A DNA stretch of 60,581 nt from Nocardia sp. BSTN01 (GTDB lineage: Bacteria; Actinomycetota; Actinomycetes; Mycobacteriales; Mycobacteriaceae). The notes under the pieces were generated by a model. The model was not told the origin of the DNA, made no database searches, and was given only the letters and a program-made list of their open reading frames with translations. Numbering within the stretch: the stretch's first letter is position 1; every line of letters begins with the position of its first letter. The stretch covers positions 1 through 60,581 of the forward strand of contig NZ_JADKYP010000046.1 of assembly GCF_015354405.1 (NCBI RefSeq), given 5' to 3'. Below, piece after piece: positions 16,590 to 54,386 of the stretch. The position numbers were made by a program, and so were the translations under genes.

Positions 16590-16837
16590 ACATCCCGATT
16601 CCGCGCCGCGCCAGCGAATGGTCACGGCACATATTGCGCTCACACTGATTTGAATGCGGACCCGCATCGCCGCAGGTGGCGCATTACCTTCGATCACCCG
16701 AATTTCAGCAGGTCGGCCGCCCGCGCGGGCGGCGGATAACCGCACACCCGGCCGCCGCCGGCCGTGCGGGCGGCACCCCGGCCGCGACACCCCCGTTACG
16801 CTCGGAAACCGCAGGTCACAAGCGTTAGGAGGTGGAG

Positions 16838-17701
16838 ATGACGGCCGATCCGGTACCCCTGCGGCAGCAGCGCGGCTCCGCTGCCGACCACCCGGCCACC
16901 GGGGCGGAGACGACGGCGCCCGGCGCCGGCGCCCGCACCATTCGCAAGGCCGATCGGGCCCGCCAGGTGGCCGACGTCCTGCGCCAGCAGATCCACACCG
17001 GACAGTGCCCGGACCCGCTGCCCACCGAATCCGAACTCGCCGCGGAATTCGCGGTGTCCCGCAACGCGGTGCGCGAAGCACTGGCACTGCTGCGCGACGA
17101 GGGCCTCATCGGCCGCGTTCCCCGGGTGGGCACCTATGTGGCACAACGTAAATACGATCACGGCCTGGACAGCCTGCGCGGCCTGAAGGAAACACTGCGC
17201 GGCCACGGCGAGGTGCGCAACGAGGTGCGCGCGGCACTGCGCCTCACACCACCGCCCGCGGTCGCCAACCGGCTCGGTCTCGAACCGGGCGAATCCGCGG
17301 TCTACCTGGAGCGGCTGCGCTATCTGGGTGATCTCCCGCTCAGCCTGGACCACACCTATCTGGCCCCGGACATCGGCGAGCAGGTACTCGACTGCGATCT
17401 GCGATCCGAGGACATCTTCGGACTCATCGAACAGATCAGCGGCCAGTCGCTCGGGTCCGCCGACCTGGCGGTGGAGGCCATCACCGCCGATATCCACAGC
17501 GCCGCCACCCTGCAGGCCCCCGAGGGCAGTGCCCTGCTGTTACTGGAGCGACTGACCTATCTCGCCGACGGGCGGCCGGTGGACCTGGAGTACATACGCA
17601 TGCGTGGTGATCGGATCACCCTGCGCGACAGTCTGATTCGCACCACGGAAAGCAACGATTGGAGGCTGAGCCGCCATGGCGTCGGTCAATCAGCGGGCTG
17701 A
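16838..17701 (+). CDS. GntR/HutC-type transcriptional regulator with UTRA domain
   Basis: 287 aa from the ATG at 16838, which has AGGAGG five bases upstream. The winged helix-turn-helix is at about residues 42-104 (LPTESELAAEFAVSRNAVRE, then GLIGRVPRVGTYV), followed by a UTRA ligand-binding domain (about 120-265). UTRA regulators bind the operon's substrate or a derivative. It is the first gene of a plus-strand operon, and its 3' end overlaps the ferredoxin gene by 26 bp. It therefore probably controls the ferredoxin, ABC transporter and flavoprotein genes and itself. The inducer is unknown. Confidence 0.88.
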   Translation: MTADPVPLRQQRGSAADHPATGAETTAPGAGARTIRKADRARQVADVLRQQIHTGQCPDPLPTESELAAEFAVSRNAVREALALLRDEGLIGRVPRVGTYVAQRKYDHGLDSLRGLKETLRGHGEVRNEVRAALRLTPPPAVANRLGLEPGESAVYLERLRYLGDLPLSLDHTYLAPDIGEQVLDCDLRSEDIFGLIEQISGQSLGSADLAVEAITADIHSAATLQAPEGSALLLLERLTYLADGRPVDLEYIRMRGDRITLRDSLIRTTESNDWRLSRHGVGQSAG

Positions 17702-17903
17702 TGTCCCGGTAACCATCGACGAATCGCTGTGCATCGAAGGGTGCACGCTGTGTGTGGAGATCTGCCCGCTGGATTCGCTGGCGATCAATCCGGACAACGG
17801 CAAGGCGTTCATGCACGTCGACGAATGCTGGTACTGCGGTCCGTGCGCGGCACGCTGTCCCACCGGCGCCGTGACCGTGAACATGCCGTATCTGCTGCGC
17901 TGA
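17676..17903 (+). CDS. Two-cluster [4Fe-4S] ferredoxin, AprB-like
   Basis: 75 aa. Two cysteine sets can each bind a [4Fe-4S] cluster: Cys19/23/26/30 (first spacing x3-x2-x3, then Pro) and Cys51/54/57/61 (x2-x2-x3, then Pro). The second set reads DECWYCGPCAARCP, like the QCWECYSCVKICP segment of adenylylsulfate reductase subunit B (from memory). The protein lacks AprB's C-terminal arm and is half its length. A GGAGG site lies ten bases before the ATG. It probably carries electrons to or from the AprA-like flavoprotein encoded at the end of the operon. Confidence 0.85.
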   Translation: MASVNQRADVPVTIDESLCIEGCTLCVEICPLDSLAINPDNGKAFMHVDECWYCGPCAARCPTGAVTVNMPYLLR

Positions 17904-17958
17904 ATCGCGCAGCGGAATCTTACAGTGGCCGCCCTCGGCCCGATTTCGAGGAAATACC

Positions 17959-19386
17959 ATGAAGTACCGTCGTGCCCGCATACTGGCGGCCGCCGCCCTG
18001 ATCGCCACTCTGGCCGCCGGATGCTCGCTCGAGCAGACCGGATCCGGGGACACCGTCCGGGTGGTCGTCGGTTATCAGTCCAAGACGATCAATACCGTCA
18101 CCGCCGGAACTCTGTTGCGCGCCAAGGGTTTCCTGGAAAAGCGCCTGAACGACCTGACCGCGAAGGGCGGGCCGAAGTATCAGGTCGAATGGCAGGACTA
18201 CGACACCGGGGCGCCGATCACCGCCCAGATGGTCGCGGAGAAGATCGACATCGGCTCGATGGGTGATTATCCGTTGCTCATCAACGGTTCCCGGACCTCG
18301 GCCAATGAGCGTTCGGCCACCGAACTGGTCTCGATCACCGGTTACCAGCCGCGCGGATCGCTGAACATGGTTGTCACCGCGCCGAATTCGACGGCGACGA
18401 CGCTGTCGGATCTCGCCGGCAAGAAGGTGTCCGCGAGCGTCGGCTCCGCCGGTGACGGCACGCTGCGCCAGGCGCTGAGCCGCGCGAACATCGATCCGGC
18501 CCACGGGGTGGACGTGCTGAATCAGCAACCGCAGATCGGCGCGTCCGCACTGGAATCCGGTCAGGTGCAGGCACTTTCGCAATTCGTGGCATGGCCCGGC
18601 CTGCTCGTTTTCCAGGACAAGGCGAAGCTGCTCTACGATGGTGCCGAATTGAACGTGCCGACGTTCCACGGAGTGGTGGCACGTCGTGATTATTCGAAAT
18701 CCCATCCCGAGGTGCTCGATGCATTCCTGCAGGCGCAACTTGACGCCACCGATTTCCTGCACGCGAAACCGCTCGAAGCCGCGCAGCTGGTCGCTGACAA
18801 CTCCGGACTGCCGGCGGAGGTCGTCTACCTCTACAACGGACCCGGGGGAACCTCATTCGACACTCCCCTGAAGCCGCAGCTGGTCCAGGCATTCAAGGGT
18901 GACGTTCCGTATCTGAAGTCGATCGGTGATTTCGCCGATTTCGACATCGACAAGTTCGTCGACGATGCCCCGCTACGCAAGTCCTTCGCCGAGCGCGGCG
19001 CGAATTACGATGCGGCCGTGGCGAATTTCGCCAATCCGGCGCCGATCACCGGCACCGACCCGAGTACCGGCAAGCCGGTGTCCGATCCGGCCCTCACGGG
19101 CGAGATCTGGTTCGACGGCCAGTCCACCGCCCAGCCGGCGGGCAGCCCGACCGATCTGCTGCGTGCGGTGAAAGCCGCTCGGGCGCAAGTGAAGAAGATC
19201 CGAGCGGCGTACGTGCCGGATGCCGAACTCGGCACCCGCTGGTTCGCGGACAAGGCGCAGTGGGTGCGCGAGGGCGATACGTACCTGCCCTTCATCACCC
19301 CCAGTGCGGTGCAGCGGTATCAGGCCCGCCATCCCGGTGCGGTCGCGGTGAGTTACGACCAGGCCATCGGTGAGGTGCGGTCATGA
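17959..19386 (+). CDS. Substrate-binding lipoprotein of an ABC transporter (sulfonate/nitrate/taurine type)
   Basis: 475 aa. The lipoprotein signal has lipobox LAAGC (Cys22). The mature protein has the NMT1/SsuA-like fold, with DIGSMGDYPLLINGS and GDGTLRQALSRANID segments typical of sulfonate and nitrate binders. It is about 150 residues longer than usual SsuA/TauA proteins, mainly by a C-terminal extension (about residues 330-475), so its ligand may be atypical. GAGGAAA precedes the ATG. The stop overlaps the permease start by four bases. It delivers substrate at the outer face of the membrane. Confidence 0.85.
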   Translation: MKYRRARILAAAALIATLAAGCSLEQTGSGDTVRVVVGYQSKTINTVTAGTLLRAKGFLEKRLNDLTAKGGPKYQVEWQDYDTGAPITAQMVAEKIDIGSMGDYPLLINGSRTSANERSATELVSITGYQPRGSLNMVVTAPNSTATTLSDLAGKKVSASVGSAGDGTLRQALSRANIDPAHGVDVLNQQPQIGASALESGQVQALSQFVAWPGLLVFQDKAKLLYDGAELNVPTFHGVVARRDYSKSHPEVLDAFLQAQLDATDFLHAKPLEAAQLVADNSGLPAEVVYLYNGPGGTSFDTPLKPQLVQAFKGDVPYLKSIGDFADFDIDKFVDDAPLRKSFAERGANYDAAVANFANPAPITGTDPSTGKPVSDPALTGEIWFDGQSTAQPAGSPTDLLRAVKAARAQVKKIRAAYVPDAELGTRWFADKAQWVREGDTYLPFITPSAVQRYQARHPGAVAVSYDQAIGEVRS

Positions 19387-20261
19387 GCGCCACCACCCTG
19401 CCCGTCGACGCGCCGGTTCCGGCCACCACTGCTCCCGCCGCCGTCGCCGAGCGCGGCAGCGCCGCGGGCGTGCCGGCGACGCGGCTGTGGACGTCGCGGC
19501 TGGTGCGGGTGGCGTCGATCGTCGTCGCACTGGTCGCCTGGCAGTTGTTGACCGCCAACCACGTTCGGTTGTGGGTGCGTTTCGATACGCTGCCGACCGT
19601 CACCCAGATCGTGCACACCCTGCGGCTGCAGTTGCAGACCGACACCTATTGGCTGGACCTCGGGCAGTCGTTGATCCGCATTCTCAGCGGGTTCGGCCTG
19701 GCCGCGGTGATCGGCGTCGCGACCGGCGTGGCGCTCGGGCGTTCCCGCTGGTTCGCCGATATCTTCGGACCGCTGACCGAGCTGGCCCGGCCGATTCCGG
19801 CGATCGCGATCGTGCCGGTGGCGATTCTGCTGTTTCCCACCGACGAGGCCGGCATCGTCTTCATCACCTTCCTCGCCGCCTATTTCCCGATCATGGTGAG
19901 CACCCGGCACGCGGTGCGGGCGCTGCCGACCATCTGGGAGGAATCGGTGCGCACGCTGGGTGGCAGCCGCTGGGACGTCCTGGTGCGGGTGGTGTTGCCC
20001 GGTAGCCTGCCGGGCGTGTTCAGCGGCCTGTCGGTCGGGATCGGCGTGGCCTGGATCTGTGTGGTCTCGGCGGAGATGATCTCCGGGCGGCTCGGCGTCG
20101 GCTATCGCACCTGGCAGGCGTACACCATCGTCGACTATCCCGGCGTCTTCGTCGGCATCATCACCATCGGCGTGCTCGGCTTCGCCACCTCGGCGGCTAT
20201 CGAACTGTTGGGACGGCGCGCCACTCGCTGGCTGCCGCGGGCGCAGGAGGTTTCGAAATGA
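19383..20261 (+). CDS. ABC transporter permease (SsuC/TauC type)
   Basis: 292 aa with about six membrane helices after a 35-residue cytoplasmic N-terminus. The EAA-type coupling loop is visible in the EESVRTLGGSRWDVLVRVVL stretch that contacts the ATPase. Its start (ATGA) overlaps the binding-protein stop, and its own stop overlaps the ATPase start in the same way. The three components are therefore translationally coupled and must work as one importer. Confidence 0.9.
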   Translation: MSATTLPVDAPVPATTAPAAVAERGSAAGVPATRLWTSRLVRVASIVVALVAWQLLTANHVRLWVRFDTLPTVTQIVHTLRLQLQTDTYWLDLGQSLIRILSGFGLAAVIGVATGVALGRSRWFADIFGPLTELARPIPAIAIVPVAILLFPTDEAGIVFITFLAAYFPIMVSTRHAVRALPTIWEESVRTLGGSRWDVLVRVVLPGSLPGVFSGLSVGIGVAWICVVSAEMISGRLGVGYRTWQAYTIVDYPGVFVGIITIGVLGFATSAAIELLGRRATRWLPRAQEVSK

Positions 20262-21013
20262 CCGGCACCGCGATGAGCCTGGGGCTAGACAAGGTCGAAC
20301 TGCGCTACGGTGGCGCTCCCGTGCTGGACGAGCTGACACTCGATATCCGCGCGGGCGAGATCCTCGTGCTGACCGGGCCGTCGGGATGCGGGAAGTCCAC
20401 GGTGCTGCGCGCACTGGCCGGGCTGCTGCCGCCCCGCTCGGGGCGGGCACTCGCGGACGGTGACGAGATCACCGGCCCCTCGCGCGATCGGGCGATGGTG
20501 TTCCAGGACAACGCGCTGTTGCCTTGGCGCACAGTACGTTCCAACATCGACCTGGCGTTGAAGTTGCGCGGCGTGCCGCGGACCGGTCGCGCGGCACAGG
20601 CCGAGCGCTGGATCGAGGAGGTCGGACTCACCGGCTTCGGCGACTACCTGCCCAAGAGTCTGTCGGGCGGTATGCGCCAGCGCGTCCAACTCGCCCGCGG
20701 TCTGGCGGGCGCACCGCGGGCGGTGCTGATGGACGAACCGTTCGGCGCCCTGGACACGCCGACGCGGATCACCATGCAGCGCTTGCTGATCCAGACCTGG
20801 CAGACACATCCGACCACGGTCGTGTTCGTCACCCACGATGTGGACGAGGCATTGACCCTCGGCGACCGCGTCGCGGTCCTCGGCGGTACCGACCGGGCGT
20901 TGCGATCGCTGCTGACGGTGCCGAATCCGCGCGCCAAGGACGTCGACCGCAGTGCCGAGCGCACCGAAATCCTTGCCGCCCTCGATCATTCGTCCCAGCC
21001 AACCGCCGCCTGA
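20258..21013 (+). CDS. ABC transporter ATP-binding protein (SsuB/TauB type)
   Basis: 251 aa. Walker A GPSGCGKST, Q-loop VFQDNALLPW, signature LSGGMRQRVQLARGL, Walker B VLMDEPFGALD and the switch His in FVTHDVDEAL are all intact, so the protein should be active. It is the last part of the transporter, coupled to the permease by a four-base overlap. 115 bp separate it from the flavoprotein gene, so transcription probably continues into that gene. Confidence 0.92.
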   Translation: MTGTAMSLGLDKVELRYGGAPVLDELTLDIRAGEILVLTGPSGCGKSTVLRALAGLLPPRSGRALADGDEITGPSRDRAMVFQDNALLPWRTVRSNIDLALKLRGVPRTGRAAQAERWIEEVGLTGFGDYLPKSLSGGMRQRVQLARGLAGAPRAVLMDEPFGALDTPTRITMQRLLIQTWQTHPTTVVFVTHDVDEALTLGDRVAVLGGTDRALRSLLTVPNPRAKDVDRSAERTEILAALDHSSQPTAA

Positions 21014-21128
21014 GCCCATCGTTCGAACGAGGCACCCCCTCGGCGACCCGGCTGCGGCAGCGCCGTTCCGGTCGCCCGGCACCGGCGTGCGTTGCCGCCC
21101 CGACTATTCACCTCTGTGGAGTGTGCTG

Positions 21129-23831
21129 ATGAAGATTCCCGAGCTGTCCGAAACCGTGCGGCTGGACTGCGATGTGCTGGTGATCGGCGGCGGAACCGCC
21201 GGCACCATGGCCGCGCTCACCGCCGCGGAGAACGGCGCGAACGTTCTGCTGCTGGAGAAGGCGCACGTGCGTCACTCCGGTGCGCTGGCCATGGGCATGG
21301 ACGGCGTGAACAACGCCGTCATCCCGGGTAAGGCGGAGCCGGAGGACTACGTCGCCGAGATCACCCGCGCGAACGACGGAATCGTCAACCAGCGCACGGT
21401 GTATCAGACCGCGACCCGCGGTTTCGCCATGGTGCAGCGGCTCGAACGCTACGGCGTGAAATTCGAGAAGGACGCCTACGGCGAGTACGCGGTGCGCCGC
21501 GTGCACCGCTCGGGCTCCTATGTGCTGCCGATGCCGGAGGGCAAGGACGTCAAGAAGGCGCTCTATCGCGTTCTGCGGCAACGCAAGATGCGGGAACGGA
21601 TCCGGATCGAGAACCGTCTCATGCCGGTACGGGTCCTCACCGACAACGGACGCGCGGTCGGCGCGGCCGCGCTGAACACCCGGACCGGGGAGTTCGTGGC
21701 GGTCGGCGCGAAGGCGGTGATCCTGGCGACCGGCCCGTGCGGGCGACTGGGTCTGCCGGCGTCGGGATATCTCTACGGCACGTACGAGAATCCGACCAAT
21801 GCCGGCGACGGGTACGCGATGGCGTATCACGCCGGCGCGGAATTGTCCGGCATCGAATGCTTCCAGATCAATCCGCTGATCAAGGACTACAACGGACCGG
21901 CCTGCGCTTATGTCGCGAACCCGTTCGGCGGATATCAGGTGAACGCCGCCGGTGAGCGCTTCGTCGACTCGGACTACTGGTCCGGGCAGATGATGGCCGA
22001 GGTGAAGCGGGAGATCGAGTCCGCGCGGGGGCCCATCTATCTGAAGGTCTCGCATCTGCCCGAGGAGACACTCGACGCGCTCGAGGGCATCCTGCACACC
22101 ACCGAGCGGCCGACCCGGGGCACCTTCCACGCCAACCGCGGCCACGACTACCGCACGCACGACATCGAGATGCATATCTCCGAAATCGGTTTGTGCAGTG
22201 GGCATTCCGCGTCCGGCGTCTGGGTGGACGAACATGCGCGCACCACGGTGCCGGGACTGTACGCGGCAGGCGATCTGGCGTGCGTACCGCACAACTACAT
22301 GATCGGGGCGTTCGTCTACGGGGATCTGGCGGGCGAGCACGCGTCGTCGACACTCACGGAAGTCGCTGCGCCCCAATCACTTCCCGCCGATCAGCTGTCC
22401 GCGGCACACGAACTGATCTACCGTCCGCTGCGCCATCCCGACGGCCCGCCGCAGCAGCAGGTCGAATACAAGTTGCGTCGCTTCGTCAACGACTACGTGG
22501 CGCCGCCGAAGACGCAGACCAAACTGTCGCTGGCGGTGGAGACCTTCGAGCGGATGCGGCAGGAGATCGCCCAGATGGGCGCGGACACCCCGCACCAACT
22601 CATGCGCTGCGCCGAGGTCGACTTCATCCGCGACTGCGCCGAGATGGCGGCGCGCTCCTCACTCACCCGCACCGAATCGCGCTGGGGTCTGTACCACGAC
22701 CGCGCCGACCTGCCCGAACGCAACGACGAGGACTGGCGCTACCACCTGAACCTGCGCAAGGGCGCCGACGGCGAGATGGAATTCCTGAAGCGCCCGGTCG
22801 CGCCGTATTTCGTCCCGGTGCCGGAATGGGAGGACCTCCCGCGCGCCGACCTCGAGCCGGTCGCTGTGGCGCAGCCGGAACTGATCGCCGGCCCGCCCCG
22901 GACGGCAGGCGCGGCCACCGGCGCCGCGCCCCGGCCGGGCATCACGATCCCCGCTGCCGCGGACGACTCCGCCGCACCCCGGATCGCGATTCTGCTCAGC
23001 CTGGACGGCCCGACGGTTGCCGAACTCCGGGACTACCTCGATGACACCGACCCGCGGGTGCGAGCCACGGCCCTGTCGGTATTGACCGAGGGCACTCCGG
23101 ACGGATTCGCCGATGCCCTGATCGCCGCACTCGGAGACGATGACGCCGCGGTGCGCGCGGCCGCCGTCTCCGGCCTGCGTGAGCTGATCGAAATCCTGCC
23201 GCCCGCAGAGCAATTGACCGCACACGCGGATTCGCCCGATCCGTTCGTGCGAGCCGCCGTAGTGGATCTGCTGCGCGCACAGCGCCGCGGCTCGGCCGAC
23301 CTGTTCGGCAAGGCGGTGGTGGACAGCGACCACCGCGTGCGCATCGAAGGGGTGCGCGCGCTGGTCTCGCTCGACGACTGGCCGGCACTCACCGCCGCGG
23401 CATTCGACGAGAACCGGGAGGTGCGGGTGGCTGTTGCTCGCGGCCTGGCCGAGGTCGGCGCCGGCGGAGCCGACACCGTCCGCGCCCTGGTCGGCGACCG
23501 TGATCCGCTCGTCCGCGCGGCGGCTCTGGCGGCGCTGGCCCGACTCGGCGATTCCTCCGACGCGACGATTCTGGCTGCAGCGCTGAAGGATTCGGCCTGG
23601 CAGGTCCGCGAGGGCGGCGCCCGCGGCTGGGCGGGCCTGGGCCCCGAATCCGCGGCCGCCGCCCTGGAACCGGCCCTGACCGACCCCCACCCGGACGTCC
23701 GCAAAGCCTCCGTCCTGACGCTGTCCCACTGGCCCGACCATGCGGCCGTCCGAGCCGCCCTCCAAGTGGTACTCGCCGACACCGACGCCGACGTCCGCGC
23801 CTACGCCCGCCGCACGCTCGAGGCCGCCTGA
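21129..23831 (+). CDS. AprA-like FAD flavoprotein with a C-terminal HEAT-repeat domain
   Basis: 900 aa. Residues about 10-560 form a fumarate reductase/APS reductase A-type flavoprotein: FAD-binding VLVIGGGTAGTMAAL (16-30), and TTVPGLYAAGD followed by VPHNYMIGAFVYGD (His388), which parallels the PHKxSSGSFAEG stretch of AprA rather than FrdA or SdhA motifs (from memory). A Pro/Ala linker (about 585-612) leads to six or more HEAT-like repeats (about 612-900; LGDDDAAVRAAAVSGLREL is typical). Together with the ferredoxin it makes an AprAB-like pair. Its substrate is unknown, but the operon's sulfonate-type importer points to a sulfur compound. A GGAG site precedes the ATG. Confidence 0.82.
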   Translation: MKIPELSETVRLDCDVLVIGGGTAGTMAALTAAENGANVLLLEKAHVRHSGALAMGMDGVNNAVIPGKAEPEDYVAEITRANDGIVNQRTVYQTATRGFAMVQRLERYGVKFEKDAYGEYAVRRVHRSGSYVLPMPEGKDVKKALYRVLRQRKMRERIRIENRLMPVRVLTDNGRAVGAAALNTRTGEFVAVGAKAVILATGPCGRLGLPASGYLYGTYENPTNAGDGYAMAYHAGAELSGIECFQINPLIKDYNGPACAYVANPFGGYQVNAAGERFVDSDYWSGQMMAEVKREIESARGPIYLKVSHLPEETLDALEGILHTTERPTRGTFHANRGHDYRTHDIEMHISEIGLCSGHSASGVWVDEHARTTVPGLYAAGDLACVPHNYMIGAFVYGDLAGEHASSTLTEVAAPQSLPADQLSAAHELIYRPLRHPDGPPQQQVEYKLRRFVNDYVAPPKTQTKLSLAVETFERMRQEIAQMGADTPHQLMRCAEVDFIRDCAEMAARSSLTRTESRWGLYHDRADLPERNDEDWRYHLNLRKGADGEMEFLKRPVAPYFVPVPEWEDLPRADLEPVAVAQPELIAGPPRTAGAATGAAPRPGITIPAAADDSAAPRIAILLSLDGPTVAELRDYLDDTDPRVRATALSVLTEGTPDGFADALIAALGDDDAAVRAAAVSGLRELIEILPPAEQLTAHADSPDPFVRAAVVDLLRAQRRGSADLFGKAVVDSDHRVRIEGVRALVSLDDWPALTAAAFDENREVRVAVARGLAEVGAGGADTVRALVGDRDPLVRAAALAALARLGDSSDATILAAALKDSAWQVREGGARGWAGLGPESAAAALEPALTDPHPDVRKASVLTLSHWPDHAAVRAALQVVLADTDADVRAYARRTLEAA

Positions 23832-23917: not shown

Positions 23918-25132
23918 ATGACCCGGATCGCGAGGAATCTTCGGCGCGTCGCCGCAACGTTGGTCGCGACCTCGGTCGGGGTCGGTGCGGCGTCGACGGC
24001 GAGCGCGGCGCCGCTGCCGACTTTCCCGATCGGCGCACCCGAATACACCGTGGATGTGAATACTCCGGCCGCCGCGCCCGGCTACATCTACTACAGCAAC
24101 GGTGTCAGTGCGGCGGCGCTGGTGCCCGGGGCGGGTAAGGCGTTATCGGCAGTTCCGGCGACCGCGCCCGCGAATATCGTCGTGGACAAGGCCGGACACG
24201 AGGTCTGGCGCTACACCCCGCCCGCCGGGCAGGACGTCTCCAATTTCCGCACCCAGACGTATCAGGGCAAGCGGGTGCTGACCTGGTGGCAGGGCGGAAC
24301 CGTCGGCGGGCACGGTTCGGGCGCCGACTACATCGCCGACGAACACGGCAACGTCATCGAAACCCTCGACGCCGGAGGCGTTCCCAGCGACGTCCACGAA
24401 TTCCGCCTGACACCCGACGGCCGAGCGTTGATCACGTCGTATCAGGAGGTGGACGCCGATCTGTCCACGATCGGCGGACCGAAGAACGGCACGATGTACG
24501 ACACCGTCGCCACGGTGGTCGACGTGGCGACCAAGCGAGTCTTGTTGCGCTGGAGTGCGGCCGAGCACGTCCCGCTCACCGACACCACCACCCCCGGCAA
24601 ACTTCCCGGCAGCGACACCTACGACCCGTACCACATGAATTCGATCGCGCTGGACCCCGACGGCAACCTGGTGATCTCGATGCGCGACACCTCCACCGTC
24701 TACGACGTGGACATCCACACCGGTGCGATCAACTGGCAACTCGGCGGATTGCATTCGACCTTCGACCTCGGCCCCGGCGTCGCATTCGCCTTCCAGCACG
24801 ATGCGGAATTCGCCGACCCCAGCACCCTGCGCCTGTTCAACAACAACTCCAGCGGCTTCCAAACGCTGGGTGTCTCGAGCGTGCAGTGGATCCACCTGGA
24901 CCTCGACAACCACCGAGCCACGTTGGTACGCAACCAGACCCACCCCGACGGCCTGACCGCCTTCGCCATGGGCGACGCCCAGCCGCTACCCAACGGGAAC
25001 ACCCTGGTGGGCTGGGGTATGGCACCGCACATCTCGGAATTCGGCCCGACCGGCGACATGGTCTACGACGCCCTGTTGCCCCTGGGCACCTATCGCGCCT
25101 TCCCGGCAGATTGGGCACCGACTCCGAAGTGA
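23918..25132 (+). CDS. Exported arylsulfotransferase-like protein
   Basis: 404 aa with a Sec signal peptide (about 1-32, cleavage after ASTASA). The mature protein has the beta-propeller pattern of the Arylsulfotransferase (ASST) families: HMNSIALDPDGNLVISMRDTS-type blades and QHDAEFADPSTLRLFNNN. Several conserved His and Asn residues are present, but the catalytic His of characterised ASST was not located with confidence. The product could therefore be a binding or structural propeller. AAAGGA lies ahead of the ATG. It follows the AprA-like gene after 86 bp and may share its sulfur theme, though this is only context. Confidence 0.75.
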   Translation: MTRIARNLRRVAATLVATSVGVGAASTASAAPLPTFPIGAPEYTVDVNTPAAAPGYIYYSNGVSAAALVPGAGKALSAVPATAPANIVVDKAGHEVWRYTPPAGQDVSNFRTQTYQGKRVLTWWQGGTVGGHGSGADYIADEHGNVIETLDAGGVPSDVHEFRLTPDGRALITSYQEVDADLSTIGGPKNGTMYDTVATVVDVATKRVLLRWSAAEHVPLTDTTTPGKLPGSDTYDPYHMNSIALDPDGNLVISMRDTSTVYDVDIHTGAINWQLGGLHSTFDLGPGVAFAFQHDAEFADPSTLRLFNNNSSGFQTLGVSSVQWIHLDLDNHRATLVRNQTHPDGLTAFAMGDAQPLPNGNTLVGWGMAPHISEFGPTGDMVYDALLPLGTYRAFPADWAPTPK

Positions 25133-26300: not shown

Positions 26301-26627
26301 ATGAGTAGCAAACAGGTCCAGGTCGATCCGGACAAGATCCGCACACACGCGAAAAATATTCAGGGCGTGAGTGATTCACTGAGCGTGGCGTTGCAGGCGG
26401 GGCAGGCCGTCTCGGTGCCGACGGATGCGTTCGGGAAGTTGTGCTCCTTCCTGCCGCCGCTGTTCATCGACACGGTCGAAGACGACGGGCTCGAGGCGAT
26501 CAAAACCGCCGCCGATGCGCTGAACGCGGATGCGGGCACACTCGAACAGGTCGCGACCTCGCTGCAGAACACCGATTCGGCGAACGCGAGTGATCTGGGT
26601 TCGGTGCGGCCCGAGGCCACCTGGTGA
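26301..26627 (+). CDS. EspC-like type VII secretion partner
   Basis: 108 aa, helical hairpin protein of the WXG100/EspC type (ESX-associated excreted protein family), starting VQVDPDKIRTHAKNIQGVSD. No WXG is present in the turn; EspC-like proteins often lack it. Its GTGA overlap with the next gene couples it to the RHS toxin, a usual arrangement for a small partner that is co-secreted with, or chaperones, a large effector. Expected to act at the ESX secretion pore, whose machine genes are not in the window. Confidence 0.75.
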   Translation: MSSKQVQVDPDKIRTHAKNIQGVSDSLSVALQAGQAVSVPTDAFGKLCSFLPPLFIDTVEDDGLEAIKTAADALNADAGTLEQVATSLQNTDSANASDLGSVRPEATW

Positions 26628-29600
26628 CGACCGAGGCCGACAACCCGCTCATCGCGCAGCGGGAGGATTCCACCAAGTGGTACACGGGTATCGGGGTCGC
26701 GGAATCGGTTGCCGACATCCACGACGCGATCTCCTCCGGCTCCTGGGTCGACGGCGGTCTCGCGGTGCTCGGCGCCGGTATGGAGGCGGTGTCGCTGGCG
26801 GTCGACCCGCTCGGCACGCTCGCCTCCTACGGCGTCGGATTCCTGATGGAGCACGTCAAACCGTTGCAGGAAGCGCTGGATTGGGTGGCCGGCGATCCGG
26901 ATACGGTGCAGGCCTACGCCAAGACATGGGAGAACGTCTCCACTCACATCAAACAGGTCGCCGACGATCACAAGAAGTCCGTCGATCAGGACGTGGCCGA
27001 CTGGACCGGCAGCGCCGGGGATGCGTACCGAACCCACGCGGCCGAGACGAACGCACTGCTGACCGCGGCATCGAACGCGGCGTCGGCGGCCTCGTCGGCG
27101 ATCGAGATGGCCGGGGGCGTGGTGGCATTCGTGCGCCAGACCGTGCGCGACCTCATCGCTCAGGCCGTGGGCCGGCTGGCCGCGTGGGCGGCCGAAGAGG
27201 TGTGCACGCTGGGCGTTGCGACTCCGTTGGTAGCCGCGCAGGCGACCACGTTCGTGGCGAAGGTGCTGACCACGATCGCCAAACTGTTCCGCAAACTCGC
27301 CTCGACCTTCAAGAAGCTCACGCCCCTGCTGCACAAGCTGAAGGGCGCGTGGGAAGACATCATGAAGGCGCTGAAGCGCGGACGTGGCGGCACGCATGTC
27401 GACGGCGCGAAACCGCATACGAAAACCCCTCCCGCCGAGACACATCCGAGTTCGCACAATCCGGATTCACCGAACGGCAAACCACACGACGACGGCGCCG
27501 ATACCCACAGCACCTCACACGACGACTCCGGCCATCCGGACGACGGCTCGACCGGTAAACCCAAGAACGATCCGCACCAGCAAGCCGACAAGGATCAGGG
27601 CAGCGGCACACATGCCGCGGAATCCGGACCGGAGAATTCCCGCACCGAGAAGCAGGTCACCGGTTGTGGTGACCCGGTCGACGGCGCGACGGGTGAATTC
27701 CTGCTGCCGGAAACGGATCTCGAACTTCCGGGTGTGCTGCCGCTGGTGCTCGGACGCAGGCATCGCTCCGACTACCGATTCGGCCGCTGGTTCGGCCCGT
27801 CGTGGTCGGCGACACTGGATATCCGGATCGTGGTCGAGTCGGCGACCGTCACCTTCATCGGTGACGACGGGATCATGCTCGCCTATCCGCACACCGAACC
27901 CGATACTCCGGTCCTGCCGCTGAACGGTGAATTGCGCTGGCCGCTGGTGCGGACCGAAACCGGCGGCTATCGCGTCACCGATCCGGACCGCGAGCTGAGC
28001 TGGTGTTTCGAGCCCGAGACCGCACTCGACGGTCTCGATGTGCGGTTGGGCAACTACGCGATCAGCGCGATCGTCGACCGCCACCACAATCTGATCCGAT
28101 TCCACTACGACAGCGACGGGTCACCGGTCGAGATCTCACATTCGGGTGGGTACCGGGTGCGGGTGGAAACCGAGGCGGGGCGGGTCACCGGACTGGCGGT
28201 GGTCGGCCGCCGCGGTGAATCCGCGTCCGGCGGAACCGGCGCGGATCGCAGTGCGGGGGTGCCGGGCGAATCGGAGCAGGGTGAACGCGAAATCGCCACT
28301 GCCGTCCGGACTTTCATTTACGAAGCCGGCGCCCTGGTCGGTGTCACGAACGGGGTCGGCGCGACCACCACCTACACCTACGACGCCGAGCAGCGGATGA
28401 CGGCGTGGACCGATTCCAACGGCAACTCGCTCACCAACACCTACGACCCGGCCGGTCGCGTCGTCCGCCAACGCGGCACCAACGGCATCCTCGACGCCGA
28501 TTTCGACTACTTCACCTACCCGGACGGCAGCGGAAGCCGCACCACCGTCACCGATTCCACCGGTGCGGCCACGATCTACGACTTCGACCCGGACCACAAG
28601 CTGCGCGATGTGATCGACCCGCTCGGCGGACGGCTCCACACCGACTACACACCCGACCGGAAGCCGCTGCGCGTCATCGCTCCCAACGGCGGGATCACGT
28701 ACTACACCTACACGCCCGACGGTGATCTATCGAAAGTCGTTCGGCCCGACCAGAAGTCGATCAGAATCGACTACGCGGCGCGCAACCGGCCCACCGTGGT
28801 CACCGATGCCGACGGCTCGACCCGCCGACAGGAATGGGACGCGCACGGCAATGTGGCCGCCACCGTAGACGAAGCCGGACGCCGCACCACCTTCGACCAC
28901 TCACCCAGCGGTGCCGTCACTTCGGTCACGGAATCAACTGGGGCGACCACGACTTTCGATGTCGACGCTGCCGGACTTCCGGTTGCCGTCACCGATCCGT
29001 ACGGCGCGGTCACCCATATCGAACGCGACCATTTCGGGCGGCCCGTCGCCGTCACCGATGCACTCGGCGGTATCACTCGCCACGAATGGTCGCCCGACGG
29101 AAAACCGCTGCGCCGCACCGACCCCGACGGATACTCCGAATCGTGGACGTGGGACGGCGAAGGCAACCTCCTCACTCACACCGACCGCGCCGGCAACCTC
29201 ACCTTCCACAGATACGGCGCCTTCGACCTGCTCACCTATCGCACGGACCCCGACGGCACCAGCACTGTCTACAACTGGGACACCGAACGCCGGCTCACCA
29301 CCGTCACCAACCCCCTCGGCGACTCGTGGAGCTACAGCTACGACCGCGCCGGACGACTCGCCGCGGAAACCGACTACAACGGCGCCACCACCGCGTACGA
29401 ACACAACCCGGACGGCACCCTGGCCGTCGTCACCACCCCCACCGGCGTCCGCCGCCATCACACCCACGACATCCTCGGCCGTCTCACCCAAATCCGCTGT
29501 GACACCGGCGAATACCAGCTCTACACCCACGACGAGGTAGGCCGTCTCCGCACGGCGATCTCCGGCGTCGGCCACGACCGCACCCACACCGTCGAATTCG

Positions 29601-31546
29601 CCTACGACCCCGCGGGCAACCTCGTCTCCCAACGCGTCGACGACCGCCCACCGATGCTGTTCGAACACGACGAGCACGGTCGCCGCACCTCCCGCCGCAC
29701 CCCCACCGGAGCGGTGACAGGCTGGGGATACGACCCCGCCGGCCGCGTCACCTCGATGACCATCGACGGGCATCGTGCGACCTTCGCGCACGACGCGCTG
29801 GGTCGCCCGACCGGATGGACCCTGGGAAATCTGGTGGTGGAGCAAGCGCTCTCACCGGTGGGCCAGGTGTTGAGCCGCCAGGTTTCGGCGCGGGCACCGC
29901 ATGTCCCGGGGTCGGCGGGACCTCTGACTTCGGACCCGACCGGTGGGCAGCAACCCGGAGCAATCCCCGGCCAACGCCCCAGTGGTGCGCCGATGCCGGG
30001 GCAACACGGCAGTGGTGCGCCGATGCCCGGTCAACATTCCGGTGGCGTGCCGATGCCCGGTCAACACGCCAGTGGTATGCCGATGCCCGGCCGACAGCCC
30101 AGTGGTGGACCGATGCCTGGTCACGGCCCGGGTGACGCATCCGTCCGCAACCACACGGGCACACCCGGCTCGGGGACTCCTCCCGTTCCCAATTCAGGTC
30201 GCCTGATCCGCCGCGACGACTACACCTGGCGCCCCGACGGCTACCTCACCACCCAAACCACCCACCGCGCGGGCACCACCCCGCAACACCGCACCTACAC
30301 CCTCGACCCCGCCGGCCGAATCACCACCATCACCGACAACGGCCGACCCACCGAGCGTTACAGCTACGACGCCCTCTCCAACATCACCAGCACGCTGCCA
30401 CCCCCGACCACCCCGTCACCCCTCCCCACCACCCACGCCCCCGACGCATCGACCCCGCTACCCGGCCAAACCCCGAACGGCCGCCGCGAATACCGCAACA
30501 ACCTCCTGATCCGCAACGGACGAACCCGCTACTTCTACGACGCGGCTGGGCGTTTGATCCGGAAGGAGGTCACGCGGCTTTCGCGCAAGCCGGACATCTG
30601 GCACTTCCGATACAACGGGTTCGATCAGCTGACGGATGTTTATACGCCGGGGAAGGAGTGGTGGAGATACACGTATGACGCGCTCGGCCATCGCACGTCG
30701 AAACAGCACTTTACGGCCGATGGCAGTGCTCTCCTCGAGCACATCGGATATACGTGGGATGCTAACGATCTCTTTGAGGCTGTTATGTTTCATCAACGGT
30801 CTGGAAGTCCTACGCGTCATCATTGGGCCCATCATCCGGGTACTCATATCCCCATTTCCGAGATAAGAGACACGCTCGACGGTGACCGCCAGTTCTGGGG
30901 AGTGCTTACTGATCTCTCCGGCTGCCCGAGCGCCCTTCACGACGTTGCGTCCGGCCGGGTGGGTGGTACGAGTCAGATCTACCTCTGGGGTCAGGCCATT
31001 TGGCAAGGGCAAACACAATCGCTGATCCGATTCCAGGGACAGAGCTTGGACATCGAATCCGGATTGCACTACAACTACCATCGATTTTATGACCCGGAGA
31101 CAGGACGATACCTTACCCCCGACCCGCTGGGCCTCGCACCGAATCCGAACCCGAATACCTATCCGTCGAACCCGGTTACATGGGCCGATCCCCTGGGCTT
31201 GCAATGCAAGAATTCCCAGAACTCGCCCAACACGCCCGCGACTGTCAGTCAACATGAGCACATCGACCCGAAGCCGGTCAAACCCGAAAATGTACTCGAT
31301 CGCTGGCGCCAATTCTTAGGGCAAGGCCCCTACACGAATCTGCACCCCCGAACGGGCCTGCCCGATCCCGATCGGATCGTATCGGCAGACGGTCGGCGCA
31401 GTATACGATTCGGGGGGCACGAAATGGGAAGCAAGCCAACGAAGTTCCATTATCACGAAGAGACCTGGAACTACGACCCGGCGAAGAACCACTGGCACAT
31501 CGATAACCGCGTGGTCCGCGTACCCTTCCCGAAAGGATCTTGGTAA
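26624..31546 (+). CDS. Polymorphic RHS-repeat toxin with type VII N-terminal domain
   Basis: 1640 aa. The N-terminal helical secretion domain (about 1-250) has a WTG turn (127-129). A hydrophilic His/Asp/Pro linker (about 255-345) and DUF6531-type GDPVDGATGEFLLPETDLEL lead to YD/RHS repeats to about residue 1500, which form the toxin-housing shell. The RHS core ends at GRYLTPDPLGL and WADPLGL. The last 115 residues (about 1526-1640) are an unrecognised toxin tip with conserved-looking RSIRFGGHE and HYHEETW motifs. Base composition falls from about 30540 to the end, the mark of an exchanged 3' cassette. The stop overlaps the next start (TAATG). Confidence 0.9.
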   Translation: MTTEADNPLIAQREDSTKWYTGIGVAESVADIHDAISSGSWVDGGLAVLGAGMEAVSLAVDPLGTLASYGVGFLMEHVKPLQEALDWVAGDPDTVQAYAKTWENVSTHIKQVADDHKKSVDQDVADWTGSAGDAYRTHAAETNALLTAASNAASAASSAIEMAGGVVAFVRQTVRDLIAQAVGRLAAWAAEEVCTLGVATPLVAAQATTFVAKVLTTIAKLFRKLASTFKKLTPLLHKLKGAWEDIMKALKRGRGGTHVDGAKPHTKTPPAETHPSSHNPDSPNGKPHDDGADTHSTSHDDSGHPDDGSTGKPKNDPHQQADKDQGSGTHAAESGPENSRTEKQVTGCGDPVDGATGEFLLPETDLELPGVLPLVLGRRHRSDYRFGRWFGPSWSATLDIRIVVESATVTFIGDDGIMLAYPHTEPDTPVLPLNGELRWPLVRTETGGYRVTDPDRELSWCFEPETALDGLDVRLGNYAISAIVDRHHNLIRFHYDSDGSPVEISHSGGYRVRVETEAGRVTGLAVVGRRGESASGGTGADRSAGVPGESEQGEREIATAVRTFIYEAGALVGVTNGVGATTTYTYDAEQRMTAWTDSNGNSLTNTYDPAGRVVRQRGTNGILDADFDYFTYPDGSGSRTTVTDSTGAATIYDFDPDHKLRDVIDPLGGRLHTDYTPDRKPLRVIAPNGGITYYTYTPDGDLSKVVRPDQKSIRIDYAARNRPTVVTDADGSTRRQEWDAHGNVAATVDEAGRRTTFDHSPSGAVTSVTESTGATTTFDVDAAGLPVAVTDPYGAVTHIERDHFGRPVAVTDALGGITRHEWSPDGKPLRRTDPDGYSESWTWDGEGNLLTHTDRAGNLTFHRYGAFDLLTYRTDPDGTSTVYNWDTERRLTTVTNPLGDSWSYSYDRAGRLAAETDYNGATTAYEHNPDGTLAVVTTPTGVRRHHTHDILGRLTQIRCDTGEYQLYTHDEVGRLRTAISGVGHDRTHTVEFAYDPAGNLVSQRVDDRPPMLFEHDEHGRRTSRRTPTGAVTGWGYDPAGRVTSMTIDGHRATFAHDALGRPTGWTLGNLVVEQALSPVGQVLSRQVSARAPHVPGSAGPLTSDPTGGQQPGAIPGQRPSGAPMPGQHGSGAPMPGQHSGGVPMPGQHASGMPMPGRQPSGGPMPGHGPGDASVRNHTGTPGSGTPPVPNSGRLIRRDDYTWRPDGYLTTQTTHRAGTTPQHRTYTLDPAGRITTITDNGRPTERYSYDALSNITSTLPPPTTPSPLPTTHAPDASTPLPGQTPNGRREYRNNLLIRNGRTRYFYDAAGRLIRKEVTRLSRKPDIWHFRYNGFDQLTDVYTPGKEWWRYTYDALGHRTSKQHFTADGSALLEHIGYTWDANDLFEAVMFHQRSGSPTRHHWAHHPGTHIPISEIRDTLDGDRQFWGVLTDLSGCPSALHDVASGRVGGTSQIYLWGQAIWQGQTQSLIRFQGQSLDIESGLHYNYHRFYDPETGRYLTPDPLGLAPNPNPNTYPSNPVTWADPLGLQCKNSQNSPNTPATVSQHEHIDPKPVKPENVLDRWRQFLGQGPYTNLHPRTGLPDPDRIVSADGRRSIRFGGHEMGSKPTKFHYHEETWNYDPAKNHWHIDNRVVRVPFPKGSW
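29981..30130 (+). repeat. Five in-frame 30-bp repeats within the RHS gene
   Basis: Five consecutive 30-bp units (29981, 30011, 30041, 30071, 30101) encode ten-residue repeats of the form SGxPMPGQHx: SGAPMPGQHG, SGAPMPGQHS, GGVPMPGQHA, SGMPMPGRQP, SGGPMPGHGP. They interrupt the YD-repeat pattern at about residues 1120-1169. A partial unit (PGAIPGQRP) precedes them. Confidence 0.9.
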
Positions 31547-35869: not shown

Positions 35870-36643
35870 TCAGGGGCGCGAATGCACGCCCTCGCGTACC
35901 TCCGCGGTGGTGCGGGTGATCATGTCCCGCACCTGTGCGGTCATTCGCCTGGAATCGGTCGGTTTGATGCGCAGGATGCGGTCGCCGAAGATCGCGTACC
36001 GGCCGTCGTCGACGAAATCGGTGATCTGGAAGTCCTTGCGGCCCTGAGTATGCCGATTGTCGGGGCTGCCCCATGGGTAGGCGGCGATGTGGAAGGTCGC
36101 GGTGGTGGGGCGTTTCAGGAAGCGGGACAGCTGTTCCTTCGGGCCGACGAGCCAGGGATCGCGGACGTGGGCTGCGGGGGCTTCCAGATCTTCGACCGGG
36201 ATGTTCAGCGGTTTGCCTTGTCCCTCAGCACATTCGGGAAGCTGCGCAATCACCGCGGCGGCGACGCGATCGGATTCGACAATGGAGAGGTGTACCGCGC
36301 CGCCGACCGTATCCTCCGGTCCCGGCTCCTGCACCGCGATCACGCCGTGGCGATCCCGCACGGCGGCGTGGACGCGGATCCGGTGTTCGCGGCCGCGCCC
36401 GCGGAACCCCGCGATCTCGATGCGGACCTCGGGATCGAACAGCACCTGGATGGCACGGTCGAGATCCTCGTCCCATTGCGGCAGCAGGACCTGCGCGATG
36501 CGCTGTCGCGTGCGGTTCACATCCTCCAGCGTCGGTTCGGCGGTGAACCGGTGTGCCAGCGGATACGGCAGCACATCGCGTCCCGTCGCATCCCACAGCA
36601 CACGGAACTCGGCCGCATCGAACCGCCATCTTCTATCACTCAT
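35870..36643 (-). CDS. EspG-family type VII secretion chaperone
   Basis: 257 aa with the EspG (ESX secretion-associated) family layout: N-terminal RWRFDAAEFRVLWDATGRDVLPYP, a central beta-rich core and a C-terminal helical segment. EspG proteins bind PE/PPE-type pairs in the cytoplasm, keep them soluble and hand them to the ESX ATPase. The PPE-like gene directly upstream in the same direction is the obvious client. No eccC or other apparatus gene is present, so the partner machine lies elsewhere. Confidence 0.85.
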   Translation of the reverse strand: MSDRRWRFDAAEFRVLWDATGRDVLPYPLAHRFTAEPTLEDVNRTRQRIAQVLLPQWDEDLDRAIQVLFDPEVRIEIAGFRGRGREHRIRVHAAVRDRHGVIAVQEPGPEDTVGGAVHLSIVESDRVAAAVIAQLPECAEGQGKPLNIPVEDLEAPAAHVRDPWLVGPKEQLSRFLKRPTTATFHIAAYPWGSPDNRHTQGRKDFQITDFVDDGRYAIFGDRILRIKPTDSRRMTAQVRDMITRTTAEVREGVHSRP

Positions 36644-41634: not shown

Positions 41635-42306
41635 ATGGCCGGGGAACCGTATAGATGGGTCGCCACAGGCGAGACCGATATGGTCGAACTGCGCGATCCG
41701 GTGTCCGGGCGCGCGGTCGAGATCGTGCGGCCCTCGGACGACGACCTGCCCGCTCCGCTACTGCGCGAGGTCGAGACCTTGGTATTCGACTGGGCCAATC
41801 TGCTCACCCAGTACGAGGCGTGGTCGGATCTGCACACGCTGTACCGCAGCGAGCCGGATACCGTTCTCTGGGCCCTGAGCTGGCTGCTGGCGCTCTGGGC
41901 GGTCGTCGGTGAGACGCGGACCGGCAAACCGGCCGACGCGATCATCCGCGACCTGGACTACCGCGGGGGCTGGCGGGATCTGCGCAACGCGGAGGACGAG
42001 CGGATCTGGACCGGATTGACGCAACGCGTACGACTGGGCGGCATCGCCGCACTCACGGAGGATCCGCGTGCGGTGCGGGCCTATCACGACGCGTGCGTCG
42101 AACCGGCCGATATCGGCCCGATTCTGCTACGGCACACGCTGATTCACCTGGACGCGCTGAGTCAGGACATGGACCGCGCGGGGATGCGAGCGCGCGGGCT
42201 CGCCTCCACGGTGCTCGATCACACCGCTCCCGATCCCGGACCGCGGCGGCGGCTCTGTTTCCGGCCCTCGCGGCCCGGATCGGACGGGTTACGCGACCTC
42301 GGCTGA
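41635..42306 (+). CDS. Hypothetical protein, 223 aa
   Basis: Not recognised. Soluble, Trp-rich helical protein (VFDWANLLTQYEAWSDLHTL; TVLWALSWLLALWAVVGE) with no signal peptide; one hydrophobic helix near residues 83-97 could be buried. The ATG at 41635 is chosen because upstream sequence in frame is Arg-rich and lacks coding character. The 3' end overlaps the convergent flavin reductase gene by 18 bp. Confidence 0.65.
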   Translation: MAGEPYRWVATGETDMVELRDPVSGRAVEIVRPSDDDLPAPLLREVETLVFDWANLLTQYEAWSDLHTLYRSEPDTVLWALSWLLALWAVVGETRTGKPADAIIRDLDYRGGWRDLRNAEDERIWTGLTQRVRLGGIAALTEDPRAVRAYHDACVEPADIGPILLRHTLIHLDALSQDMDRAGMRARGLASTVLDHTAPDPGPRRRLCFRPSRPGSDGLRDLG

Positions 42307-42813
42307 GGCCGGATCGGCGCCGGGATGCAGGCGGCGGAACCGGCTGCCGTGGAAGACCAGCGGTTCGTGCTGGGAGCGCGTCGCCAGGCGAGTGATCTGC
42401 ACCAGGACGACCTGATGGTCGCCGGCCGACACCTGGGTGTGCACGGTGCCCTCCAACCAGGCCGCCGCGCCGCCGACGAAGATGGACCCGCCCTCTCCCC
42501 GATGCAGGTCGACATCGCCGAAGCGGTCACCGTGGCGGCTACTCATCCGCTGCGCCGCCTCGTCCTGGTGGGCACTGAGCAGGCTCAGGCCCAAGCGCTG
42601 GGCGCCGACCAGCTTGGGCCAGGTGGTCGAGCTGTTCTGCACGCAGAACGACACCAGCGGCGGATCCAGGGATACGGGCACGAAGGTGCTCACCACCAAT
42701 CCGGCGGGCACGTCGTCGAATTCCGCGCAGACCGCGACCACCCCGCTCGGGAAATGCGCGAAAGCGCGACGCAAACCCGTACTGTCGGCGGGTATTTCGA
42801 TCAGATCAGACAT
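42289..42813 (-). CDS. Flavin reductase (NADH:FMN oxidoreductase, HpaC/RutF-like)
   Basis: 174 aa of the flavin reductase-like domain family: N-terminal FAHFPSGVVAVCAE, the VSTFVPVSLDPPLVSFCVQN flavin-binding stretch and the VLVQITRLATRSQHEPLVFH tail. Such proteins supply reduced FMN or FAD to two-component monooxygenases. It is the last gene of the minus-strand organosulfur cluster, 37 bp after the SfnB-like gene, and at least SfnG, the NtaA/DszA-type and the DszC-type enzymes here would need reduced flavin from it. Cytoplasmic. Confidence 0.88.
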   Translation of the reverse strand: MSDLIEIPADSTGLRRAFAHFPSGVVAVCAEFDDVPAGLVVSTFVPVSLDPPLVSFCVQNSSTTWPKLVGAQRLGLSLLSAHQDEAAQRMSSRHGDRFGDVDLHRGEGGSIFVGGAAAWLEGTVHTQVSAGDHQVVLVQITRLATRSQHEPLVFHGSRFRRLHPGADPASAEVA

Positions 42814-42850
42814 GGTTACCCACTTCTCGGCTTACTTCGCGGTCGCCGTA

Positions 42851-45222: not shown

Positions 45223-45419
45223 CGACACTCCTGTGATTGGGACATCCTTACCCGGTCGCGCCGACGGCCGGGCTGTTCGGTACGCACTCCGTGGTCGGTG
45301 CGCCGAGTGCGGCAACCGTGCACCCGGCGCACCTCCACTTCAACACCGCTGACCGGCGGGGACGAGGGTTTGAATCCTCAGGATCGGATCAGCGCGCCCG
45401 TCCGAGCCGGCAGTCGGCG

Positions 45420-46799: not shown

Positions 46800-46877
46800 A
46801 ACGAAATAGTGCGCTTGCCAGCGGCTTTCGTTGACAGTTGCGATCACCGGGAATCGATGTCGCGCACCGCCGATCGG

Positions 46878-54221: not shown

Positions 54222-54386
54222 TGCTTGATTCCTCGACTTTCCGACTGCCGGCACGCGGCAGCACAGGTTGCCGTGTCCGGCACAGACACACGGCATCGGT
54301 GGAGTTTGCGGGCGTTCGATGCGGATGGGCCAGATTAAGAACCAGCCCGATTACAACCGGTGACACACTTCCGGCCGTCGGCCATC

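Follow-up and report, generated by a model that had tools for sequence, protein, structure and literature searches.

What does a flavoprotein resembling adenosine 5'-phosphosulfate (APS) reductase do in one operon with a sulfonate-type importer? This question is raised by a contig of the soil actinomycete Nocardia sp. BSTN01 (NZ_JADKYP010000046.1; 60,581 nucleotides, the whole of which is termed the window here), from a genome of 7.79 Mb. The six-gene operon at 16832-23831 lies entirely on the forward strand and encodes a GntR-type regulator, a dicluster ferredoxin, the binding protein, permease and ATPase of an ABC importer, and a 900-residue flavoprotein. On sequence grounds the operon may represent an uncharacterised sulfur-scavenging module, in which a sulfo-compound is imported and sulfite is released reductively by the flavoprotein-ferredoxin pair, a tentative reading to which we give somewhat less than an even chance. 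Evidence for a sulfo-ligand is moderate, as is evidence for APS-reductase-like flavin chemistry. Evidence for direct cleavage of a C-S or O-S bond is circumstantial, comprising the lack of a conserved oxygenase, the presence of sulfite exporters beside some copies, and the retention of flavin-side residues together with altered substrate residues.

The overlapping or tightly spaced genes on one strand (successive spacings of -26, +55, -4, -4 and +115 bp) and the CWYCGPC motif of the ferredoxin were found as described in the original prediction. To place the operon among its relatives, the window proteins were used to search the 80 best loci of a scan (Nocardia, Aldersonia, Antrihabitans, Rhodococcus and the Mycobacterium group). 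The operon is a real conserved unit and not a chance arrangement, since 75 of the 80 loci hold all six genes in identical order, three of these (L018, L064 and L065) with wider gaps. Three of the five incomplete loci end at a contig edge (L057, L084 and L086), another (L062) is a 4.3-kb contig with the ferredoxin immediately 5' of the flavoprotein, and the fifth (L075) is considered below. Fourteen additional actinobacterial loci comprised 12 with the full set in order, ten of them from a single genus (f16/g54), one with the genes reordered (L124) and one remnant (L125). Four protein clusters occurred in more than 32 of the 80 loci, all of them module genes and none an oxygenase, on a reading by eye in which the gene caller missed many ATPases and an 80-residue floor excluded the ferredoxin.

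The flavoprotein, read from the ATG at 21129 with a longer GTG frame from 20952 that overlaps the ATPase set aside, contains the Pfam domains FAD_binding_2 and Succ_DH_flav_C followed by HEAT repeats, which the original prediction had not mentioned. It is a full member of NCBIfam NF010374 (PRK13800; 1694.1 bits against a cut-off of 1196, residues 1-899) and also passes NF006131 (PRK08275; 874 bits against 587). Both families are named fumarate reductase/succinate dehydrogenase flavoprotein subunit, and the dicarboxylate chemistry so implied is unsupported by the aligned residues of the window protein. NCBIfam supplies this name, and no defined reaction was found, in line with the expectation that the family lacks an assigned one. 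The protein falls under the NCBIfam cut-offs for aprA (133.5 versus 641.75 bits) and adenylyl-sulfate reductase (271.8 versus 557 bits). Its nearest solved relative is the alpha subunit of the 3'-phosphoadenosine 5'-phosphosulfate (PAPS) reductase of Methanothermococcus (MtPAPSR, PDB 8a8o; 188 bits, 2e-54), with the A. fulgidus APS reductase (AfAPSR) next; 8a8o, 1jnr and 2fja occupy the first three places among PDB sequence matches. In the scan the closest relatives are from Nocardia, N. aobensis showing 99% identity across the flavoprotein domain, and no relatives were found by a search for them in viral contigs.

Seventeen module flavoproteins (the window protein, three more from actinobacteria and 13 from proteobacteria or cyanobacteria) were aligned in MAFFT with MtPAPSR, AfAPSR, the Ilyobacter enzyme, three Asf-like proteins and a protein of the same Nocardia genome judged by eye to be SdhA. 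We take N74, Y95, E141, W234, R265, L278, R317 and H398 to be the active-site positions of AfAPSR, with Arg265, Trp234 and Arg317 serving in APS binding; these positions bear the expected letters on the PDB sequence (1jnr), which supports the register of the alignment. The equivalents of Asn74 and His398 (N61 and H359) are invariant in 17/17 module flavoproteins, and those of Trp234, Arg265 and Arg317 are Tyr219, Leu250 and Glu291 in all 17. The proposed kinship with AprAB held up, as did the sulfonate-type importer; identity with AprAB chemistry on APS was not supported, given these three replacements. Eighteen columns, including N61, H359, K252-D253, Y283 and E352, are invariant across the module rows and the three APS/PAPS reductases and differ in two Asf rows and the succinate dehydrogenase (SDH) row. 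No counterpart was found, against this single SDH row, for what we take to be the catalytic arginine motifs of SDH (PRD and NRLG): PRD lies opposite SDYWSG, with Ser281 in place of the arginine, and the arginine of NRLG lies opposite a gap before NYMIG. Fumarate-reductase residues, named beforehand as evidence against the idea, were likewise not present in the alignment. In a tree of these proteins the Asf and APS reductase groups were each recovered at 100/100 and the module group at 61/87; deep placement is unsure because several branches are long.

The ferredoxin matches the beta subunit of these reductases in its motifs, both for two [4Fe-4S] clusters and for the electron-transfer Trp. The window ferredoxin carries CIEGCTLCVEICP in addition to CWYCGPC, and ECW[YF]C was found in 12/12 module ferredoxins aligned, with its Trp opposite W42 in the beta subunit of the Ilyobacter APS reductase. 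In the two AsfB-type ferredoxins compared, CQTC takes this position and the Trp is lacking. Trp42 of MtPAPSR has been proposed to act in electron transfer, and an N5-sulfur intermediate has also been proposed (excerpted text of PMC10322725). The module shares with MtPAPSR and AprAB (1jnr, 2fja) an FAD flavoprotein, a dicluster ferredoxin, the Asn74 and His398 equivalents and the beta-subunit Trp. It differs in the three replaced substrate residues, in about six additional residues around YVLPMPEG, in a short ferredoxin that lacks the C-terminal tail and whose first-cluster loop is longer (CX3C or CX5C), in its HEAT partner and in having its own ABC importer.

The binding protein has an SsuA/TauA-type fold, with SsuA/TauA first in both fold listings, although it scores below the NCBIfam SsuA cut-off (120.8 versus 163.5). 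Positions that contact the sulfonate in SsuA are largely kept in the family. The permease is below the cut-offs for NCBIfam ntrB, SaoP, TauC and SsuC. The importer resembles SsuABC and TauABC in binding-protein fold, in most sulfonate contacts and in the type of its permease and ATPase, but it is combined with a flavoprotein-ferredoxin pair in place of SsuD or TauD and its binding protein has an additional domain. This extension, put at 150 residues in the original prediction, is real, with about 130 residues (~342-475) past the SsuA fold. It had been taken to suggest an atypical ligand, a suggestion not sustained, as the extension appears to form a domain of its own, NosL-like and shared by the aligned family members, and the sulfonate contacts are largely kept. 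Pfam NosL was matched at E <=0.01 by 11 of 15 family members, with the window member itself above this value, and the family profile matched NosL 7og7 at 1.9e-5. The Cys-Gly-Met of 7og7, presumably the copper-binding motif of NosL, lies opposite Thr-Gly-Lys in the family profile and is absent there.

Among 199 genomes of the order, NF010374 was detected in 23, of which 22 were above the cut-off and one (G070) held fragments with an in-frame TGA; the 22 module genomes referred to below are defined by flavoprotein score alone, not by six genes, and exclude G070. NF006131 was matched at E 1e-150 in 21 of 396 genomes of a phylum sample. A tblastn search of plasmids at E 1e-30 returned 54 records, from Actinobacteria, Cyanobacteria, alpha-, beta- and gammaproteobacteria and Acidithiobacillus at ~55-84% identity, with a single APS-reductase-type match (Ilyobacter, 23.5% identity). 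The Ilyobacter plasmid (L130, 2303-5782) carries cysC, an APS-reductase-like alpha subunit, a ferredoxin and cysD, probably an assimilatory system resembling that of Methanothermococcus.

Seventeen plasmid neighbourhoods were chosen from the 54 records. Ferredoxin and HEAT repeats were found in all 17, the HEAT protein being separate in 16 and fused in Tsukamurella (judged from flavoprotein length), and the binding-protein/permease/ATPase triple lay within the stretch in 14 (not L089, L091 or L093). Regulators were of GntR type in seven and of Crp/Fnr type in eight. DUF971 occurred in nine and Mrp/NBP35 in three (12/17 together); we take Mrp and DUF971 to be linked to Fe-S carriers, and these neighbours suggest that such carriers assist the module. 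FdxA and a ferredoxin-NADP reductase stand beside the module in L095. TauE/SafE sulfite exporters adjoin three copies (L094, L108 and L110) and proteins of the YeiH/sulfate-exporter type adjoin two. A TSUP-family (TauE-related) transporter located some 7 kb 5' of the Acinetobacter copy (L092, 1579-2370) falls outside the sulfite-exporter count. Most proteobacterial copies place the flavoprotein before the ferredoxin. In the Nostoc plasmid copy (L089, 10701-15144) two HAD hydrolases, a methyltransferase, a GNAT and a VOC protein lie between the two, and GNAT and amidase genes turn up again beside the copy of Methylocystis (L113).

The copies of proteobacteria and cyanobacteria have the HEAT repeats as a protein of their own; in the actinobacterial copies that were seen they are fused to the flavoprotein, with the exception of G183, of the same genus as the window. 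Here (L124) the matches to flavoprotein and HEAT repeats overlap and fall in different open frames, and the genes run GntR, flavoprotein, HEAT, ferredoxin, binding protein, permease, ATPase. Taken with the HEAT genes that stand alone elsewhere, this unfused version is consistent with a fusion having taken place in the remaining actinobacterial copies. A model of the window protein made with AF2 has HEAT helices at residues 616-899.

We infer the substrate class, the direction of the reaction, the N5 chemistry, the sulfite product and the roles of the HEAT repeats and GntR as follows. The operon would be an inducible sulfur-scavenging module whose binding protein, permease and ATPase import a small sulfo-bearing organic compound, which could be a sulfonate or, perhaps, a sulfate ester. 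Flavoprotein and dicluster ferredoxin would form an APS-reductase-like complex in the cytoplasm, with electrons passing from two [4Fe-4S] clusters by way of the conserved Trp to FAD. The N5 of the reduced flavin would take the sulfo group, as in APS/PAPS reductase, and sulfite would then be freed for the cellular sulfite reductase, with the HEAT repeats perhaps scaffolding the complex or assisting its maturation. Replacement of canonical sulfate reduction by the module was considered and dropped, as PF01507 (CysH/CysD family) proteins coexist with it in 23/23 genomes checked (the 22 module genomes and one that has a remnant).

Several points weigh against this proposal. Substrate and activity are predictions from sequence, and for the catalytic domain AF2 gave a poor model (mean predicted local distance difference test score of 63.3 with 52 rows at 74-87% identity to the window protein), so that the active-site statements rest on alignment; the structure alignments comprised 52 of 81 flavoproteins and 44 binding proteins. 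At the Ser141 contact position of the binding protein, 81 of 89 sequences carry Ala. Locus L075, on a long contig, has regulator, ferredoxin and flavoprotein with no adjacent transporter genes matched. Oxygenases are sometimes close to the module, outside its core, as monooxygenase-type genes lie near it in four of the 17 plasmid neighbourhoods (L090, L109 and L116, and a Rieske protein in L114). Finally, an unactivated C-S bond yields a poor leaving group under reductive attack, and a sulfate ester or an activated sulfonate would thus be easier; the sequence does not discriminate.

A bolder form of the proposal, that the module encodes a new oxygen-independent class of reductive desulfonase or sulfatase, a flavoprotein-ferredoxin complex derived from APS reductase that splits the sulfo group straight from an imported organic molecule through a flavin N5-sulfite adduct without ATP activation or an oxygenase, is in our estimation somewhat unlikely. 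Were it true, there would be a second, reductive way to free sulfur from organic molecules, with an APS-reductase-like core and no conserved oxygenase; the fumarate reductase/succinate dehydrogenase annotation would be corrected for relatives in several phyla; and the new class would have members in Actinobacteria, in Cyanobacteria and in several classes of proteobacteria. Soil sulfur is mostly organic, with sulfonates and sulfate esters as the main forms, and sulfonates are described as giving up their sulfur through monooxygenases (abstract of PMC4267179). No characterisation of the module was found in open-licence literature among the matches listed, and the module is not mentioned in the available portion of a sulfur-limitation proteome of Rhodococcus (PMC8557817).

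An AsfAB-type role, in which the flavoprotein and ferredoxin just feed electrons to an FMN-dependent oxygenase encoded elsewhere that cleaves arylsulfonates, is an unlikely alternative with real points of contact. AsfAB of P. putida S-313 and Cupriavidus has similar parts for sulfur supply (a flavoprotein-ferredoxin pair and a sulfonate-type binding protein), asfA is needed for aromatic desulfonation in P. putida S-313, and asfRABC is described as supplementing ssu with an electron-transfer tool-kit for use on aromatic sulfonates (PMC4267179, in part). The monooxygenase-type genes near four plasmid copies would fit, as would an SsuD-like match in 18 of the 22 module genomes. This match, at E 1e-90, occurs in 89/199 genomes, in only one of them above the SsuD cut-off, and is missing from the remaining four module genomes. 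The two systems are nevertheless different, because their flavoproteins are distant paralogs, the window genome has its own Asf-like pair and their occurrence differs, though they may be alike in part of their working.

For this comparison three loci on the C. metallidurans megaplasmid were looked at (L097, L098 and L099; seven weaker matches on the record were left out). L098, a flavoprotein gene followed by an overlapping ferredoxin gene, scores 51 bits to NF006131, and the megaplasmid record gave no tblastn match to the window flavoprotein at E 1e-30. Its correspondence to Rmet_4334/5 is deduced from position and adjacency, and as a comparator it bears no deposited AsfA label; Rmet_4334/5 are named AsfA/AsfB in an excerpt of PMC2864759. 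No asfA primer or protein sequences were found in the portions of PMC9694294, PMC3506598, PMC4070957 and PMC10914941 at hand. The pair in the window genome, on another contig (L122, 8389-10367), has a flavoprotein 57% identical to that of Cupriavidus and is flanked by an NtaA/DmoA-type FMN monooxygenase downstream and a luciferase-like frame upstream (a weak match to the SsuD profile). A second Asf-like flavoprotein in this genome (L123, 7317-8936) is 42% identical to the Cupriavidus one, with no ferredoxin noticed among the adjacent listed frames. At E 1e-100, Asf-type proteins occurred in 13 of 199 genomes, namely 7/22 module genomes and six module-less ones. In gene order, too, asfA is directly followed by asfB, whereas the window ferredoxin lies 3.2 kb upstream of the flavoprotein; the module has GntR in place of the LysR regulation of AsfAB (same excerpt of PMC4267179). 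An identity of the module with AsfAB was therefore rejected, given the own Asf-like pair and the grouping apart of Asf sequences in the tree.

A function outside sulfur metabolism, with an importer and reductase for another anion or a heterocycle and a flavoprotein that reduces a double bond, is as improbable as the AsfAB-type role. The superfamily includes fumarate reductase and other dehydrogenases, and the binding-protein fold is common to nitrate, bicarbonate, hydroxymethylpyrimidine (HMP) and pyrroloquinoline quinone (PQQ) binders, one of which ties with TauA. Against this stand the missing SDH arginine motifs, the largely conserved sulfonate-contact columns, the top rank of SsuA/TauA in both fold listings and the sulfur genes near several copies.

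That the pair works in the oxidising direction, oxidising a sulfo or sulfite species and reducing ferredoxin for detoxification, is quite improbable. One copy lies on a plasmid of A. caldus, which we take to be a sulfur oxidiser, and sulfite exporters adjoin the three copies noted above; yet the conserved transporter is an importer and not an exporter, and the APS-site arginines are lost. Dissimilatory APS reductases are reversible (PMC10322725, in part), which would favour this direction.

A true APS or PAPS reductase for sulfate assimilation, as in Methanothermococcus, is highly improbable despite the best PDB match to MtPAPSR and the placement of H126-R127-S128 opposite its PAPS-specific Lys-Arg-Ser (excerpt of PMC10322725) in a HMMER alignment, since this correspondence is shifted by one in the MAFFT alignment with position 127 being R or H across the family, the three substrate residues are replaced in 17/17, PF01507 proteins are present in every genome checked, cysC and cysD are absent from the module cluster unlike that of Ilyobacter, and a dedicated sulfonate-type importer would be left unexplained.

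Table 1. Positions of the operon genes, the upstream element and neighbouring sulfur-related features in the window.
Feature	Coordinates	Strand	Details
Three-block element upstream of operon	16675..16738	+	GGTGGCGCATT 16675-16685; GCAGGTC 16708-16714; degenerate second copy CGGCGGATA 16730-16738
GntR/UTRA (HutC-type) transcriptional regulator	16832..17701	+	GTG start, ATG alternative 16838; Pfam UTRA 108 bits, GntR 64.3 bits
2[4Fe-4S] ferredoxin, beta-subunit-like partner of the flavoprotein	17676..17903	+	75 aa; Pfam Fer4, Fer4_7 and others
Lipoprotein-type ABC substrate-binding protein	17959..19386	+	475 aa; Pfam NMT1; SsuA/TauA-like ~31-341, NosL-like C-terminal domain ~350-475
ABC permease (SsuC/TauC/NtrB type)	19383..20261	+	Pfam BPD_transp_1 82.9 bits
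ABC ATPase (TauB/SsuB type)	20258..21013	+	Pfam ABC_tran; NCBIfam taurine ATPase 214.6 bits, below cut-off of 357
APS-reductase-like FAD flavoprotein with fused HEAT repeats	21129..23831	+	ATG start, 900 aa; flavoprotein 1-570, HEAT repeats ~616-899
Secreted arylsulfotransferase-like (ASST) protein	23918..25132	+	86 bp downstream of operon; Pfam Arylsulfotran_2 174.9 bits
Oxygenase-type sulfur-acquisition cluster	42289-49525	-	Flavin reductase, SfnG, StyA-like flavoprotein, luciferase-like monooxygenase, SfnB-like acyl-CoA dehydrogenase
SsuD-like alkanesulfonate monooxygenase	54360-55547	+	446 bits versus cut-off 518

Regulation of the proposed scavenging module may involve the element upstream of the operon. 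The half-site GGCGCAWT was found 5' of GntR in 63 of 75 loci, against a background of 0.04 per 340 bp in the same loci, and in 31 cases a spacing of 53 or 54 nt separated two copies that had GC[AT]GGTC between them. A strict three-block pattern searched in 38 genomes gave 12 matches, one each in 12 genomes, and none with a reversed control or in six module-less genomes. Eleven of the matches lie on the contig of the flavoprotein, 4.0-4.2 kb 5' of it, and the match in G152 sits on a different contig, close to its end. Genus g2 accounts for all 12, with the pattern in 12 of its 16 module genomes (not G084, G107, G148 or G168); neither the four genomes from the genus of the window, nor G160 or G108, nor any f16 genome (0/10) contained the strict pattern. 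The second repeat of the window element is degenerate and the strict pattern does not match it. An Rfam search at the window element, with its relatives outside the search, returned nothing worth keeping (best two E values 2.2 and 2.8). RNAalifold on 25 rows gave a single 4-bp helix at -3.8 kcal/mol, lower than in 100/100 column shuffles, and with only this helix the element is treated as a candidate DNA site. Acting at the upstream GGCGCAAT element, GntR probably turns the operon on.

Consistent with the original prediction, no sat, qmo or dsr family was detected among the scanned window proteins, a scan that covered part of the window's open reading frames. The ASST protein directly downstream was dropped as a partner of the module because it was matched in only 4/80 related loci (L009, L010, L012 and L015). 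Within the oxygenase-type cluster, SfnG matched the dimethylsulfone monooxygenase family at 630 bits (cut-off 383) and the SfnB-like acyl-CoA dehydrogenase scored 262 bits (cut-off 431). Elsewhere in the window, an EspC-like type VII secretion protein is followed by a 1640-residue protein of RHS-repeat type by eye (26301-31546), and an EspG-like protein (35870-36643) comes after this pair, with a low-GC stretch at 30-36 kb (GC 0.56-0.59).

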